Shown here: piece after piece, positions 7,237-12,979 of the stretch | How positions within the stretch are numbered: the stretch's first letter is position 1 | Layout of the letters: the number at the start of each line of letters is the position of its first letter | NCBI GenBank assembly: GCA_014983025.1 | Contig: JADCLP010000001.1 | Coordinates: forward strand, 1-64,000 | Direction of reading: 5' to 3' | DNA: 64,000 bases | From: Erythrobacteraceae bacterium E2-1 Yellow Sea | Lineage (GTDB): Bacteria; Pseudomonadota; Alphaproteobacteria; Sphingomonadales; Sphingomonadaceae | Notes under the pieces: generated by a model | The model's input: the letters and a program-made list of their open reading frames with translations, nothing else | The model's database searches: none | What the model was told of the DNA's origin: nothing | Translations under genes and position numbers: made by a program

Positions 7237-8469
7237 GTGCCCGAACCCAAGACTGCCCCCCGAAATGATGGCGGGCTGACGCTGGCGGAACGATTTACTG
7301 CCACGCGCGGACTGAGTGAGGCGCTTGTGCGCCCTTTGTCCGACGCAGATGCCACCATCCAGTCGATGGAAGATGCCTCTCCTGCCAAATGGCATCTGGC
7401 ACACACGACATGGTTTTGGGAAACATTTCTGCTGCGCGATCATTTGGCTGGATACCGCCTGTTCAATGCGGATTGGCCATATTTGTTCAATTCCTATTAC
7501 GAGGCTGAAGGCCAGCGGATTACTCGCTTTTCTCGCGGTATGCTGTCGCGCCCCACGCTTGAACAGGTGTTGGAATGGCGCGCGCATGTGGATGTCGCAA
7601 TGGCTGCATTACTTGATCGTCAAGAACTGACCGCTCTGATTGAATTGGGGGTGGCACATGAACAGCAGCATCAGGAATTGCTGCTGACCGATATCAAACA
7701 CGCCATGTTCCAGAATCCTACTGGCCCGGCCATATGGGCCGGCGCGCCTGTGCCTGCAACATGTGGCGATCTATCATGGTTCAAGCATCCCGGCGGTATC
7801 GCCATGGTGGGATATGATGGGCCGGACTTTGCCTTTGACAATGAAGGGCCATGCCACCGCGTTCTGCTGGAGCCGTTTGCACTTGCCACGCGGCTCGTCA
7901 CCAATGACGAATGGCAGCAGTTTATCGATGATGGCGGCTATGGCGATGCGCGGCTGTGGCTTTCTGATGGTTGGGCCTGGGTCCAGCGTGCAGGTATTAC
8001 TGCGCCGCTATACTGGCATAAGGATCAGCATTTTACGCATCAAGGTTGGCATGCCCGCGATCCTGATGCGCCGGTTGCGCATATCTCTTTTTTTGAGGCG
8101 GATGCCTATGCCACATGGGCAGGGACGCGGTTGCCGACAGAGTTCGAATGGGAGGTGATTGCGAAGTCGCACGATCACGCATCTGGCAACCAGCTGGACG
8201 GTGCAGGGCCTGTGCTGCCAAAGGGCGGTGACGGACTGTTCGGGGATTGCTGGCAATTCACGCGATCGGCCTATCTTCCCTATCCCCGCTACCAACCGGC
8301 AGCCGGTGCAGTGGGGGAATATAATGGCAAGTTCATGAGCGGGCAGGTGGTGCTGAAGGGTGCCAGTTGCGCCACTGTGCGTGGCCATTCACGCGCCAGC
8401 TATCGCAATTTCTTCTACCCACATCAGCAATGGCAGTTCACTGGCCTGCGTTTGGCAAAGGATATCTGA
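7237..8469 (+). CDS. egtB: ergothioneine biosynthesis protein EgtB (iron-dependent sulfoxide synthase)
   Basis: A 410-residue protein in two parts. The N-terminal DinB-like domain carries the iron-binding His53 (HLAHTTWFWETF) and the HEQQH pair His141/His145. The C-terminal formylglycine-generating-type domain is at about 180-410 (e.g. RLPTEFEWEVIAK, ending SYRNFFYPHQQWQFTGLRLA). EgtB couples trimethylhistidine to a cysteine or gamma-glutamylcysteine sulfur using O2. A GTG start is chosen because AGGAG lies 6 bases upstream and the nearby ATG at 7233 is out of frame. It sits two bases before egtD, so the pair is an operon. Confidence 0.94.
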   Translation: MPEPKTAPRNDGGLTLAERFTATRGLSEALVRPLSDADATIQSMEDASPAKWHLAHTTWFWETFLLRDHLAGYRLFNADWPYLFNSYYEAEGQRITRFSRGMLSRPTLEQVLEWRAHVDVAMAALLDRQELTALIELGVAHEQQHQELLLTDIKHAMFQNPTGPAIWAGAPVPATCGDLSWFKHPGGIAMVGYDGPDFAFDNEGPCHRVLLEPFALATRLVTNDEWQQFIDDGGYGDARLWLSDGWAWVQRAGITAPLYWHKDQHFTHQGWHARDPDAPVAHISFFEADAYATWAGTRLPTEFEWEVIAKSHDHASGNQLDGAGPVLPKGGDGLFGDCWQFTRSAYLPYPRYQPAAGAVGEYNGKFMSGQVVLKGASCATVRGHSRASYRNFFYPHQQWQFTGLRLAKDI

Positions 8470-8471
8470 TC

Positions 8472-9458
8472 ATGGCGACAGGCCAGGGGATTGCATTGGT
8501 CGATCTGGATGATGATGGTGTTGATCGCGCCTTTCGTACAGAAGTTTTGGTCGGGTTGAAGCAGGTGCAAAAGGCGGTGCCGGCGCGCTGGTTTTATGAC
8601 GATGCAGGATCCCGCCTGTTTGAAGAAATTACCCAGCTGCCAGAATATTATCTGACACGTGCTGAAACAGAGATTTTACGGGGTCGTGGGGAAGATTTCG
8701 CACACCTGATCGGGCCTGGCCGCGCAGTGGTTGAATTTGGTTCCGGCAGTTCGGTCAAGACGCCTCTATTGCTACATGCCATCGAACCGGCAGCCTATGT
8801 CCCGCTCGACATATCAGGGGATTTCCTGCGTGCATCAGCGCGTGATCTGGCAGCAAAGTTTCCTGGCCTGCCAGTTTATCCTGTAGAGGCGGATTTCATG
8901 CGGCAGGTTGCGCTGCCGGAAGAGGTGGCAGGGTTACAGAAATTGGGATTCTTCCCGGGTTCGACCATCGGTAACATGGTGCCTGCCAGCGCGGTCGATC
9001 TGTTACGCGCAATGCGCCAGACACTGGGTGAAGGATCGCAACTGTTGATCGGGATGGATCTGATCAAGGATCGCAAAGTGCTGGAAGCTGCATATGATGA
9101 TGCAGCTGGCGTGACCGCGCAATTCAACCTTAACCTGCTGGCCAGGATCAATCGCGAGCTGGATGGGGATATTCCGCTGGAAGATTTTCGCCATCTCGCG
9201 CTGTGGAATGATGATCTGGCGCGGATTGAAATGCATCTGCAGGCACGGCGCGATCTGAACTTTCGCGTGTCCGGACAGAGTTTCAGCATACAAGCCGGTG
9301 AAACAATCCATACTGAAAACAGCCACAAGTTCAGCCGACGCATGGGCAATACCATGTTGCTGGCTTCTGGTTGGACGCCAGTGGAACACTGGCTGGATAG
9401 CGAAGAAAGGTTTGCGCTGGTGCTGGCCAGGGCGACAGAGCCACGTAGCGCACCCTGA
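8472..9458 (+). CDS. egtD: L-histidine N-alpha-methyltransferase EgtD
   Basis: A 328-residue SAM-dependent methyltransferase that trimethylates histidine to hercynine, the first step of ergothioneine synthesis. Seen: the N-terminal ARWFYDDAGSRLFEEITQLPEYYLTRAE motif region, the SAM loop AVVEFGSGSSVKTPLLL, GSTIGNM, and the C-terminal ENSHKFS segment. The ATG at 8472 follows the egtB stop by two bases; the longer open frame from 8367 lies inside egtB. egtA, egtC and egtE are not in the window, so later steps must use genes elsewhere or a shorter pathway. Confidence 0.95.
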   Translation: MATGQGIALVDLDDDGVDRAFRTEVLVGLKQVQKAVPARWFYDDAGSRLFEEITQLPEYYLTRAETEILRGRGEDFAHLIGPGRAVVEFGSGSSVKTPLLLHAIEPAAYVPLDISGDFLRASARDLAAKFPGLPVYPVEADFMRQVALPEEVAGLQKLGFFPGSTIGNMVPASAVDLLRAMRQTLGEGSQLLIGMDLIKDRKVLEAAYDDAAGVTAQFNLNLLARINRELDGDIPLEDFRHLALWNDDLARIEMHLQARRDLNFRVSGQSFSIQAGETIHTENSHKFSRRMGNTMLLASGWTPVEHWLDSEERFALVLARATEPRSAP

Positions 9459-9645: not shown

Positions 9646-10500
9646 TCAGAATGTCTTTCCTTCAAAATCGCTGGCGGAATGGCGTTCTTCCAGACGCGAG
9701 TTTTCATCACCCCAAGTGCGATTAACGATCCGCCCACGCTTCACGCCAGGACGTTCGGCAATCTCATGCACCCAGCGCCCGACATGTTCATACTCGTCAA
9801 TGGAAAGGAAAGTCTTGGCGTCATTGTAAATTGTGCCGAACACAAATGGGGCGAGCCAAGGGAAATTGGCGATATCGGCGATTGTGTATTCATCGCCTGC
9901 CAGAAAACGGTTTTGTGCCAGGCGCTGGTTCGCCACATCGAAAATGCGCTTGGTCTCCATGGAATATCGGTTGATGGGATATTCGTATTTCTCAGGCGCG
10001 TAGGCATAGAAATGGCCGAACCCGCCACCGATGAATGGCCCTGTGCCCACCTGCCAGAACAGCCAACTGAACGTTTCGGCGCGTGCGGCGGTTTCGGTGG
10101 GCAGGAAAGCTCCAAACTTTTCCGCCAGATGCATCAGGATTGCGCCAGATTCGAATATAGGGATTGGTTCTGGCCCGCTGCGATCAACCAGCGCCGGGAT
10201 CTTTGAATTGGGATTAATTTCGACAAAACCGCTGGTGAATTGGTCCAGATCTGAAATGCGGATAATCCATGCATCATATTCTGCATCCTGATGGCCGGCC
10301 TCCAACAGTTCTTCCAGCATGATGGTGGCCTTCACCCCATTGGGCGTGCCAAGCGAGTATAGTTGCAGAGGGTGTTCGCCCACGGGAAGCTCGCGTGTTT
10401 CGCGTGCACCTGCAGTCGGTCGATTAACACCAGTGAATTGTCCCGCTTCTTCATTGTCAAAAATCCACACTTTGGGCGGTGTGTAGGTTGTGTCTGCCAT
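9646..10500 (-). CDS. yghU: YghU-type glutathione S-transferase-like disulfide-bond oxidoreductase
   Basis: A 284-residue GST-fold protein of the Nu/YghU class. Seen: the characteristic N-terminus TPPKVWIFDNEEAGQFTGVN and FTGVNRPTAGAR, then PLQLYSLGTPNGVKATIMLEE, with Asn/Thr rather than Cys in the glutathione site, and NPNSKIPALVD. YghU enzymes reduce small disulfides using two bound glutathiones. The ATG at 10500 fits the conserved start; the longer frame to 10611 has no homology. It is divergent from the HTH-NAD synthetase gene across a 163-base gap holding a perfect palindrome. Confidence 0.9.
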   Translation of the reverse strand: MADTTYTPPKVWIFDNEEAGQFTGVNRPTAGARETRELPVGEHPLQLYSLGTPNGVKATIMLEELLEAGHQDAEYDAWIIRISDLDQFTSGFVEINPNSKIPALVDRSGPEPIPIFESGAILMHLAEKFGAFLPTETAARAETFSWLFWQVGTGPFIGGGFGHFYAYAPEKYEYPINRYSMETKRIFDVANQRLAQNRFLAGDEYTIADIANFPWLAPFVFGTIYNDAKTFLSIDEYEHVGRWVHEIAERPGVKRGRIVNRTWGDENSRLEERHSASDFEGKTF

Positions 10501-10636
10501 GGGGGATGTTCCTGATTTTGTCCTGTCACATGATATGTTCGTGAAATGGGGCGGTACGGTTACGCAAACAACCCTAGGTGACGCCCGAAACATGACAGTT
10601 TTGATTTGCAATCTGAAACCAAACTTGCTTGCACTT

Positions 10637-10655
10637 TGTATCCTTTAAGGATACA
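10637..10655. promoter_or_regulatory. perfect 19-bp palindrome, candidate operator
   Basis: TGTATCCTTTAAGGATACA is a perfect inverted repeat with 9-bp arms around one central base. It ends 9 bases before the ATG of the HTH-NAD synthetase gene. A -35-like TTGCTT (10625-10630) lies just upstream, so a bound protein would cover the -10 region. Since the downstream product begins with a helix-turn-helix domain, autoregulation is the simplest inference; direct proof is lacking. Confidence 0.6.
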
Positions 10656-10663
10656 TAAGGGCT

Positions 10664-12979
10664 ATGCATCTTGCTGGATATAAAATTCGCCAGTGGCGTG
10701 AAGCGCATGAGCCGCCACTTTCTGCAGAAGAATTTGGTGCGCGTTTTGGTGACCCTTGGCCCAGTCGTACAGTTTATGGCTGGGAATCTAAAGGAAAAAT
10801 TGCCCGGGCGCCTGTGCAAAAGAAGCTGGCGGAGCTGGGCATCTGCACGCCTGAGGATTGGCTGGAGCTGGCACCTAAAGGGGATACTGAAGGGGTGGGG
10901 GCAGTATCCTGCGACAGCGAAAATGCCCACCCATTCTACGATATACGACATCATGGCTTCATTCGAGTAGCGACATCCACTCCTCAGGTTCGCACTGCGG
11001 ATGTCACATTCAACGTCGATGGCATTTTGGCAGAGGCTGAGCGCGCGCATGATGCAGGCGTTGATCTGGTGGTGTTTCCTGAATTGTGTATAAGTTCCTA
11101 TGCGCTGGATGATTTGCATTTGCAGCATACGCTGCTGGATGCGGCAGAGGCGGGACTGGCGCGCATAGTCACCGCCAGCGCACGGATAGATCCCGTTCTG
11201 CTGGTGGGTGCACCGCTGCGCCATAATGGCCGCATATACAATTGTGCAGCCGTGGTGGCAGGCGGTCAATTACTAGGGGTGATCCCCAAAAGTTTCCTGC
11301 CCAATTACCGCGAATATTATGAAAAACGCTGGTTTGCGCATGGCCGCAATATCCAGGGGCAGACCATCAGCGTGACCGACAGCAAGGTGCCCTTTGGCAC
11401 CGATCTGATCTTTGCCGCGCGCAATCTGCCCAATTTCAAGTTGTTCGTCGAAATTTGCGAAGATTACTGGGCCCCCACGCCACCCTCCACCATGGGCGCG
11501 CTGGCTGGTGCGACTGTGGTGGCCAACCTTTCCGCATCCAACATCACCATCGGCAAATCGGATGAACGCCATCTACTCAGCCGGGCGCACTCCGCGCGTT
11601 CTGTCTGCGCCTATATCTACTCGGCCAGTGGACATGGTGAAAGCACAACGGACCTTGCCTGGGATGGGCAGGGTATGATCTATGAATTGGGCGATCTGCT
11701 GGCAGAAAGCGAGCGGTTCAGCTTGCATCCGGAATTGAGCATCGCCGATGTGGATGTGGCGCGTGTGGCGGCGGAACGTATGCGAATGCAGACCTTTAAT
11801 GATGCTGCAGAGCAGGCGGGGAGGCCTGAAGACAAATTCCGCACTGTCGAATTTGATCTTGTCACCAACGAAGGTGATCGGGGCCTGATCCGGCCTGTCG
11901 CGCGTTTCCCCTTCGTGCCCAATCGCCAACATAGGCTGGACGAGGATTGTTACGAAGCATTCAACATACAGGTTGATGGGTTGATGCGGCGGCTGGAGGC
12001 GACCCATGCGAAGAGCATGGTGATCGGCGTATCAGGTGGGCTGGATTCCACCCATGCGCTGATCGTGGCGGCCAAGTGTTGTGACCGGTTGGGCCTGCCG
12101 CGCAGCACCATTCGCGGTTACACCATGCCCGGCTTTGCCACATCAGATCACACCAAATCGAACGCGTGGAAGCTGATGCGCGCATTGGGCATCACGGCAG
12201 AAGAAATCGACATCCGCCCCGCTGCCACGCGCATGCTGGAAGATATGCAGCACCCCTTTGCCGATGGGGAGCCGGTACATGATGTGACCTTTGAAAATGT
12301 GCAGGCAGGATTGCGGACGGATTATCTGTTCCGGCTGGCTGGCCACCATTCAGGTTTTGTGATCGGCACAGGCGATTTGAGCGAGCTGGCACTGGGCTGG
12401 TGCACCTATGGCGTGGGTGACCAGATGAGCCATTATGCGGTCAATTCGGGCGTCCCCAAGACATTGATCCAATATTTGATCCGCTGGGCGGTAGGGACTG
12501 AGCAGTTTGACCCTGAAACCGATGATGTGCTGCTGTCCATCCTCGATACGGAAATTTCGCCCGAACTGGTGCCGGCAGGCGATGATGGCGAAATCCAGAG
12601 TACGGAAAGCATCATTGGGCCGTATGAACTGAATGATTTCTTCATCCACCACACTATCCGTTGGGGGCAACATCCCAGCAAGATTGCCTTTCTGGCATGG
12701 CATGCGTGGAAGGATGCACGTGCAGGGGTGTGGCCGGCGGGTTTCCCGGAAGAGAAGAAGAATGAATATGATCTGGTAACGATCCGGCATTGGCTGGAAA
12801 AATTCATCCGTCGCTTCTTTGCCTTCAGCCAATTCAAGCGCAGCGCGATCCCCAACGGGCCCAAGGTCAGCGCAGGCGGGGCGCTCAGCCCACGTGGGGA
12901 TTGGCGCGCACCATCTGACGCGGTGGCCGATGTGTGGCTGCAAGAATTGCGTAAGGGATTGCCTGAATTGCAGGTTTGA
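10664..12979 (+). CDS. nadE: glutamine-dependent NAD synthetase with N-terminal helix-turn-helix domain
   Basis: An unbroken 771-codon frame. Residues 1 to about 75 form a small XRE/HTH-like domain (GYKIRQWREAHEPPLSAEEF, then DPWPSRTVYGWESKGK). From HPFYDIRHHGFIRV (89 on) it is a complete NadE: nitrilase-type glutaminase with Glu140, Lys209 and Cys265 (VEICEDYW), then the synthetase with the ATP-pyrophosphatase loop SGGLDS at 457-462. NadE makes NAD from deamido-NAD, ATP and glutamine. Usual length is about 680-690; a GTG at 10895 would give a 694-residue NadE alone, but it lacks a well-spaced RBS. So this is either a true fusion or an HTH gene whose stop was lost. The divergent yghU and the palindrome upstream complete the locus. 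Confidence 0.9.
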   Translation: MHLAGYKIRQWREAHEPPLSAEEFGARFGDPWPSRTVYGWESKGKIARAPVQKKLAELGICTPEDWLELAPKGDTEGVGAVSCDSENAHPFYDIRHHGFIRVATSTPQVRTADVTFNVDGILAEAERAHDAGVDLVVFPELCISSYALDDLHLQHTLLDAAEAGLARIVTASARIDPVLLVGAPLRHNGRIYNCAAVVAGGQLLGVIPKSFLPNYREYYEKRWFAHGRNIQGQTISVTDSKVPFGTDLIFAARNLPNFKLFVEICEDYWAPTPPSTMGALAGATVVANLSASNITIGKSDERHLLSRAHSARSVCAYIYSASGHGESTTDLAWDGQGMIYELGDLLAESERFSLHPELSIADVDVARVAAERMRMQTFNDAAEQAGRPEDKFRTVEFDLVTNEGDRGLIRPVARFPFVPNRQHRLDEDCYEAFNIQVDGLMRRLEATHAKSMVIGVSGGLDSTHALIVAAKCCDRLGLPRSTIRGYTMPGFATSDHTKSNAWKLMRALGITAEEIDIRPAATRMLEDMQHPFADGEPVHDVTFENVQAGLRTDYLFRLAGHHSGFVIGTGDLSELALGWCTYGVGDQMSHYAVNSGVPKTLIQYLIRWAVGTEQFDPETDDVLLSILDTEISPELVPAGDDGEIQSTESIIGPYELNDFFIHHTIRWGQHPSKIAFLAWHAWKDARAGVWPAGFPEEKKNEYDLVTIRHWLEKFIRRFFAFSQFKRSAIPNGPKVSAGGALSPRGDWRAPSDAVADVWLQELRKGLPELQV

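Follow-up and report, generated by a model that had tools for sequence, protein, structure and literature searches.

A helix-turn-helix head on NAD synthetase and a palindrome in its promoter suggest self-control of nadE in Erythrobacter-group bacteria

The first 64,000 nucleotides of contig JADCLP010000001.1 from Erythrobacteraceae bacterium E2-1 Yellow Sea (the whole stretch that we analysed, called the window here) contain an open reading frame at 10664–12979 on the plus strand, which starts with ATG and runs for 771 codons without an internal stop. It joins a Cro/CI-like helix-turn-helix (HTH) domain, through a variable linker, to a whole octameric-type glutamine-dependent NAD synthetase (NadE). 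An initial annotation of the sequence had noted this frame and had suggested that the enzyme, if translated as one chain, may bind DNA, possibly at its own promoter. Is the HTH head really part of the enzyme, and does it act on the enzyme's gene? We infer from sequence comparisons, with no binding data, that the nadE enzyme very probably controls its own gene in many Erythrobacter-group bacteria. The parts of the frame are as follows.

10664–10867, plus strand: Cro/CI-like HTH domain (residues 1–68), from AlphaFold, fold comparison, conservation and dN/dS
10757–10786, plus strand: recognition-helix region WPSRTVYGWE (residues 32–41), near-invariant in 70 aligned sequences
10868–10930, plus strand: variable, probably flexible linker (residues 69–89), with low pLDDT and 19 lengths
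10895–10897, plus strand: in-frame GTG (codon 78), the only candidate internal start in the window's linker
10931–12958, plus strand: complete octameric-type glutamine-dependent NAD synthetase (residues 90–765)

The enzyme part is complete, as the initial annotation had said. Residues 90–765 match the NCBIfam model NF002730 (NAD(+) synthase) with 1069.9 bits against a curated cutoff of 473, Pfam places CN_hydrolase at residues 101–370 and NAD_synthase at 436–607, and PDB structure 3dla, which we take to be the Mycobacterium tuberculosis enzyme, aligns to residues 91–767 with an E-value of 3e-259. The residues E140, K209 and C265, the Glu-Lys-Cys glutaminase triad, and S457-G-G-L-D-S462, the SGGLDS synthetase loop, are unchanged across 31 aligned sequences including the window's. 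At an E-value of 0.001, the only match to the window protein in its own genome is its own gene.

By scanning a genome collection with an alignment of the HTH we found the same layout in 72 named loci, mostly from the Erythrobacter group (Erythrobacter, Altererythrobacter, Qipengyuania, Pontixanthobacter, Tsuneonella, Croceibacterium, Aurantiacibacter and similar genera, together with less specific metagenome-assembled genome names). Because its patterns were WPSRTVYG and LAG[YH]KIRxW, the scan is biased towards loci with the WPSRTVYG helix, a bias that also bears on the near-invariance of this helix noted above. The HTH is in frame with the start of NadE, with no stop separating them, in every one of the 72 loci; five of them leave the end of their contig, and one metagenome-assembled genome (L108) is frameshifted within NadE. 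Because 72 named records have the same frame, we exclude an assembly error as the source of the fusion, and with it the hidden stop that the initial annotation had named as a possible refutation.

The fusion is distributed patchily. The HTH is present in 31 of 114 genomes of the window's genus (E below 1e-39, leaving out three weak matches). Among 35 genus genomes with a NadE match, 10 are fused, and tblastn searches with the HTH gave no significant match at the nadE locus in the remaining 25. In a sample of the family, 101 of 199 genomes have a long NadE, and 34 of these 101 align from the HTH onwards. Stops flagged in three fused matches (G151, G170 and G325) are the gene's own end, at codon 762–769. 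A search of 289 genomes across the class gave strong matches in four genomes, all of the same family, and three weak matches elsewhere. We built a NadE tree with FastTree from 84 distinct fused genes (ORF over 740 amino acids) and 46 unfused ones, the latter being all 26 long NadE genes of the genus search plus 20 picked by hand from 67 in the family sample. The tree has 10 changes of fusion state, 7 of them forced by supported branches; 37 of its 127 inner branches are unresolved, so it does not fix whether the fusion is ancestral or derived. From this patchiness and the 10 changes we infer that the HTH head is dispensable.

What is the head? It had been labelled XRE-like, and for the window's own sequence no family model supports that label. 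At an E-value of 1, neither Pfam nor NCBIfam has a model that matches residues 1–99, the cutoffs of HTH_3 and HTH_31 are not reached, and phmmer, run with the isolated N terminus on PDB sequences, found nothing above chance level (best E 0.6), so the label needed support from the fold and from homologues. The homologous heads of L200, L202 and L203 lie just under the HTH_31/HTH_3 cutoffs (24.7 and 26.6 of 27; 22.5 of 23), and those of L136 and L238 do not match either model. AlphaFold, run with 70 sequences, predicts a five-helix domain at residues 1–74 (best pLDDT 88.4, with 73–83 for the other four models). This model matches the P22 c2 repressor with a Z-score of 7.3 and the 434 repressor with 6.3 (rmsd 2.6–2.8 Å over 62–64 residues), and the solved structures nearest to it are mostly Cro/CI-like DNA-binding proteins, with HigA antitoxins also present. 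Z-scores of 7–8 are middling and do not decide for an HTH fold by themselves, and Foldseek searches with the model gave no matches at E below 0.001. With that reservation the model shows a five-helix, lambda-repressor-like fold, and the XRE-like label rests on this resemblance to the P22 c2 and 434 repressors and on the near-cutoff scores of the homologues. The dN/dS ratio of the HTH is 0.02–0.15 in 12 of 14 pairs, and the other two pairs gave no dS.

The fold matches also include chains of HppE (Z 6.8), an enzyme whose Cro-like domain may be a structural or assembly module without DNA binding. Together with the lack of a match between the window domain and HTH family models, this leaves room for the idea that the HTH-like fold on NadE is likewise structural. 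We give that idea very little credence: the domain is coupled to a promoter palindrome that changes with the recognition helix and is near-unique in the genomes, as set out below.

The linker bears on whether there is one protein or two. Residues 73–87 have pLDDT below 50 in the full-length model, as expected of a flexible tether; this model is modest overall (mean pLDDT 71.7), with further low segments in the HTH and the core. Among 85 fused genes the linker has 19 distinct lengths, and the reading frame is kept in every one. Lengths were measured from a DW motif as far as HG-x-x-R in NadE, which adds about 12 NadE residues; in L099 and L122 we placed the beginning of the linker at residue 68. 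The motif failed on five of the 90 distinct fused genes (L091, L112, L115, L116 and L125), which leaves these 85; inspection by eye shows a linker Met in each of the five.

The initial annotation had considered, as an alternative, internal initiation at the GTG at 10895, and had judged its ribosome-binding site improper; we agree, as there is no Shine-Dalgarno match of at least 4 nt ahead of it. A linker ATG is lacking in 22 of the 85 fused genes, the window's among them, and in 14 the linker is free of ATG, GTG and TTG alike; Croceibacterium salegens (L139) is a species without any such codon, and Qipengyuania citrea (L078) one whose linker has an ATG together with a ribosome site. Elsewhere internal initiation has more to recommend it: 63 of the 85 linkers contain an ATG, 34 of these with a Shine-Dalgarno match of at least 4 nt, compared to 19 of 85 genes with such a match ahead of the HTH ATG. 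Such linker ATGs sit 12–14 codons ahead of the HG-x-x-R motif, the usual start region of unfused NadE genes. A second, short NadE product is therefore possible in species with a linker ATG. A stronger form of the argument would make two proteins the rule, a small HTH autorepressor and an internally initiated NadE, with the fusion being read-through or minor. This we consider unlikely, in view of 72 loci without a separating stop, linkers of so many lengths that all stay in frame, and the genes without any internal start; at best, some species would use it alongside the fusion. Nor do the fused loci contain the arrangement that had been named as a refutation, separate HTH and NadE genes with a stop between them, although unfused relatives with NadE alone do exist. 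Taking the open in-frame linkers, the start-less linkers and the low dN/dS of the HTH together, we infer that HTH-NadE is translated, under selection and a single chain, at least where the linker offers no internal start.

As a separate observation, the linker ATG has a Shine-Dalgarno match of at least 5 nt in the fused nadE genes of L106, L107, L110, L239, L243 and L253, which suggests an additional head-less NadE there.

If a single chain with a repressor-like head is made, where might it bind? The sequence immediately upstream of the window's nadE contains a perfect palindrome, whose surroundings are listed here with a related half-site in the linker.

10629–10634, plus strand: −35-like hexamer TTGCAC, read from the sequence, with its promoter role inferred
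10637–10655, no strand assigned: putative operator, a perfect 19-bp inverted repeat TGTATCCTT-T-AAGGATACA, with the core GTATCC-N5-GGATAC at 10638–10654
10652–10657, plus strand: inferred −10 region TACATA, placed by spacing only, 17 nt after the −35-like box and overlapping the right half-site
10904–10909, plus strand: GTATCC half-site in the linker, left half only, at the same offset (ORF +240) as sites in L069 and L074

A gap of 8 nt separates the palindrome from the ATG. Spacing alone leads us to infer a transcription start at the A of the ATG, and so a leaderless mRNA; a scan for consensus sigma-70-like promoters found none on the plus strand at the window operator. The GTATCC/GGATAC core is present, with 11 or 12 of its 12 bases, at all 73 loci compared. 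The end of the core is 8–12 nt from the ATG in 72 of them and 4 nt in one, and the nearest TTG upstream of the 17-bp core begins 9 or 10 nt ahead of it in 65 of 73. Two close relatives, L069 and L074, also have a nearly full second operator within the linker, with 11 of the 12 core bases; we sought a general second operator in the linkers of the fused genes and saw it only in these two.

The palindrome goes with the head. In the tree set, an operator matching at 10 of 12 bases or better is present upstream of 84 of 84 fused NadE genes and 0 of 46 unfused ones, for which we searched up to 400 nt and found a best match of 9 of 12. This association holds in 7 of 7 phylogenetically independent contrasts (p = 0.016). 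When arms of any sequence were allowed, perfect 6/6 inverted halves were found in the last 40 nt of 88 of 115 promoters (counts that include three duplicates); 200 mononucleotide shuffles gave 0.7 on average and never more than 3.

The sequence of the palindrome also changes with the recognition helix. A profile search revealed a second class of NadE-linked HTH, with KTQTVFGWE in place of WPSRTVYGWE. In the tree set, the WPSRTVYGWE class has the operator GTATCC-N5-GGATAC (69 of 69 genes) and the KTQTVFGWE class has TTATCY-N5-RGATAA (15 of 15), so that the two types match in 84 of 84 genes. The two classes are interleaved on the NadE tree, and independent supported contrasts agree in 4 of 4 cases, which is too few for significance. 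In 7 of 78 class A promoters the left half reads GTAGCC. The sister pair L099 and L243 is a case in which head and operator differ between close relatives: their NadE DNA past ORF position 300 is 85–100% identical per 60 nt, and their promoter and HTH only 51–71%. Promoter, operator and head were apparently replaced here as a unit, by a probable recombinational swap that ended near the linker. Because promoter and HTH travel as one segment, linkage could account for part of the agreement between helix and operator.

The operator is close to unique in genomes that have the fusion. Across 24 fused genomes there are 17 perfect operators, 16 of which are at the nadE promoter, 9–12 nt from the ATG. 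The lone extra site lies inside a coding frame in genome G005, so the other 23 genomes have no second perfect site, and a reversed control pattern gave two perfect sites in the same 24 genomes. The window genome has the nadE operator as its sole perfect match. With at most one mismatch allowed, 41 genus genomes yielded 89 sites, compared to 220 for the reversed control, and on this search we set a wider regulon aside. It could still be argued that the HTH governs other NAD genes as well, or that it activates rather than represses. Among known proteins NadR comes closest, and it acts as a repressor of several NAD genes (PMC12421817); in addition, 8 of the 24 fused genomes, G005 included, have one or two mismatches in their own nadE operator, so that imperfect sites elsewhere cannot be excluded. 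The site counts speak against a wider regulon, and repression is favoured because the operator overlaps the inferred −10 region; we regard either departure from self-repression as improbable.

The pairing of head and operator recurs at another enzyme. In a different genus of the same family (g112), a related HTH with the helix PGSTVQGWE is fused to a class II DAHP synthase (PF01474, E = 1.7e-206), the entry enzyme of aromatic amino acid synthesis. The loci concerned (L195–L201, L258–L272 and L380–L399) have an operator TTACCC-N5-GGGTAA in the same place and with the same 6-5-6 geometry as the nadE operator, often as two in tandem. Of 101 genomes sampled, 96 have a DAHP synthase match: 41 from the HTH onwards, 54 without the HTH, and one C-terminal fragment. 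We took 20 further fused genes and 20 unfused genes as subsets of the 41 and 54, and found the TTACCC operator (10 of 12 or better) in 20 of 20 fused and 0 of 20 unfused genes, the best unfused match being 9. A second copy is located 24–65 bp further up in 18 of the 20 fused promoters (33–36 bp in 15 of them). Across 22 fused genomes, 22 perfect sites occur in 19 genomes, three of which have two, and all are at the DAHP synthase promoter; the reversed control gave one site. This replicate makes chance an unlikely source of the pairing between HTH and operator. The fused heads of both enzymes together predict a recognition code, in which the helix PSRTVY goes with the half-site GTATCC, KTQTVF with TTATCY, and GSTVQ with TTACCC.

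The DAHP synthase genes bear on another reading as well, in which the palindrome serves as an RNA element or as a site for some other regulator and is tied to the HTH only by the shared ancestry of one segment. Linkage alone could couple the two, since promoter and HTH move together, and the types of HTH and operator are few. An origin of this kind would have to accommodate two enzyme fusions that share 6-5-6 geometry and spacing from the ATG despite different half-sites, and second operator copies that stand further upstream, away from the ATG, in nearly all the DAHP synthase promoters. We think it very unlikely, and prefer the HTH head itself as the protein that recognises the palindrome.

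Where could such heads have come from? Standalone HTH homologues of 73–78 amino acids are present at L202 (1980–2198), L203 (2246–2470) and L273 (minus strand). Each adjoins an oppositely oriented gene of 154–166 codons and has a primase-like gene downstream. For L202 and L203, Pfam identifies the former neighbour as XRE-type and the latter by DUF7146 and Toprim_3; for L273 both were assigned by eye. These loci look like a Cro-like gene heading the replication module of an integrated element. Searches of plasmids, phages and viral contigs with the L202 protein gave no match, so a mobile-element origin of the head is inferred from neighbouring genes only. The picture that we lean towards, without great assurance, is that of a portable cassette within this family, consisting of a promoter, a 6-5-6 operator and a Cro-like head derived from mobile elements, which was inserted in frame before NAD synthetase or class II DAHP synthase to give self-repressing enzymes, and whose specificities have been swapped between species.

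For nadE itself, the explanation that best covers the data, and that we hold with good confidence, is a single HTH-linker-NadE chain that binds the palindrome in its own promoter and exerts negative autoregulation. Two heads of the oligomeric enzyme, tethered through the flexible linker, would occupy the 6-5-6 palindrome, which covers the spacer and the −10 region; the bound dimer would block polymerase and shut off nadE transcription, hence negative autoregulation of an essential enzyme, apparently with the nadE promoter as its only target. The paired heads would be supplied by the enzyme oligomer. The M. tuberculosis NadE is an octamer according to the accessible part of PMC6946656, so paired heads should be available if the fused enzymes resemble it. 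By analogy with NadR, binding may also depend on how the enzyme is assembled or on whether it is occupied by NaAD, ATP, glutamine or NAD, a hypothesis on which none of our computations bears. Promoter, operator and HTH behave as one cassette, which has been exchanged between NadE genes and resembles a Cro-like regulator of integrated mobile elements. The proposal rests on comparative evidence–the single conserved frame, the co-occurrence of HTH and operator, the joint change of helix and operator, and the near-uniqueness of the operator–and to that extent bears out the suggestion that the chain binds its own promoter. DNA binding, repression rather than activation, the leaderless transcript and the sensing of any ligand or metabolite are inferred, in the absence of binding, expression or proteomic data.

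Enzymes with regulatory DNA-binding domains are known from other systems. In PutA and BirA an enzyme carries a DNA-binding domain through which it regulates its own pathway's genes, a link that has been shown experimentally; these domains are unrelated to the NadE head. The P22 c2 and 434 repressors have a palindromic operator inside the promoter, as is inferred for nadE, and share the five-helix fold, whereas the window's HTH is part of a metabolic enzyme and goes unrecognised by Pfam HTH models. NrtR, NiaR and NadQ likewise exert transcriptional control over bacterial NAD synthesis, and to our knowledge they are not fusions with NadE. The nearest in kind is NadR of Enterobacterales (HTH, NMN adenylyltransferase and ribosylnicotinamide kinase), which shares an HTH on an enzyme of the NAD pathway. 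Unlike NadR, the window enzyme is the terminal NAD synthetase, with apparently only its own promoter as a target. A Pfam scan of the window protein found no NMN adenylyltransferase or ribosylnicotinamide kinase domain, and because these are absent HTH-NadE cannot be NadR. The accessible part of PMC12421817 describes four kinds of NAD transcription factor (NadR, NiaR, NrtR and NadQ), of which NadR is an NAD-metabolic enzyme with an HTH at its N terminus and a transcriptional repressor responsive to NAD and ATP. Compared to the octameric NadE of the M. tuberculosis type (PDB 3dla), the window protein shares the whole enzyme and its catalytic residues, and adds the N-terminal HTH and linker. The term 'helix-turn-helix' does not appear in the main text of two papers on octameric NadE (PMC3376133 and PMC7196632), nor is an HTH mentioned in the accessible part of a third (PMC6946656). 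A literature search, mainly of open-access papers and limited to titles and the beginnings of abstracts, returned no report of a fusion of HTH with NadE or with DAHP synthase. Fusion of an enzyme and a repressor is already known as a kind; the novel part is the proposed portable cassette.

HTH-NadE is a candidate to join the four factors above as a fifth kind of transcriptional control over NAD synthesis, one exerted by the final enzyme of the pathway on itself. Should the cassette proposal hold, enzymes would have a general way of turning into regulators. The NadE and DAHP synthase fusions, parallel cases each with its matching operators, amount to a natural experiment on the joint change of HTH specificity and operator, and offer a possible view of how mobile-element regulators may be domesticated.

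Upstream of nadE in the window, a GST-like gene is located on the minus strand at 9646–10611, and upstream of this are two overlapping frames (7237–9458) that by eye resemble an EgtB/EgtD ergothioneine-type pair.
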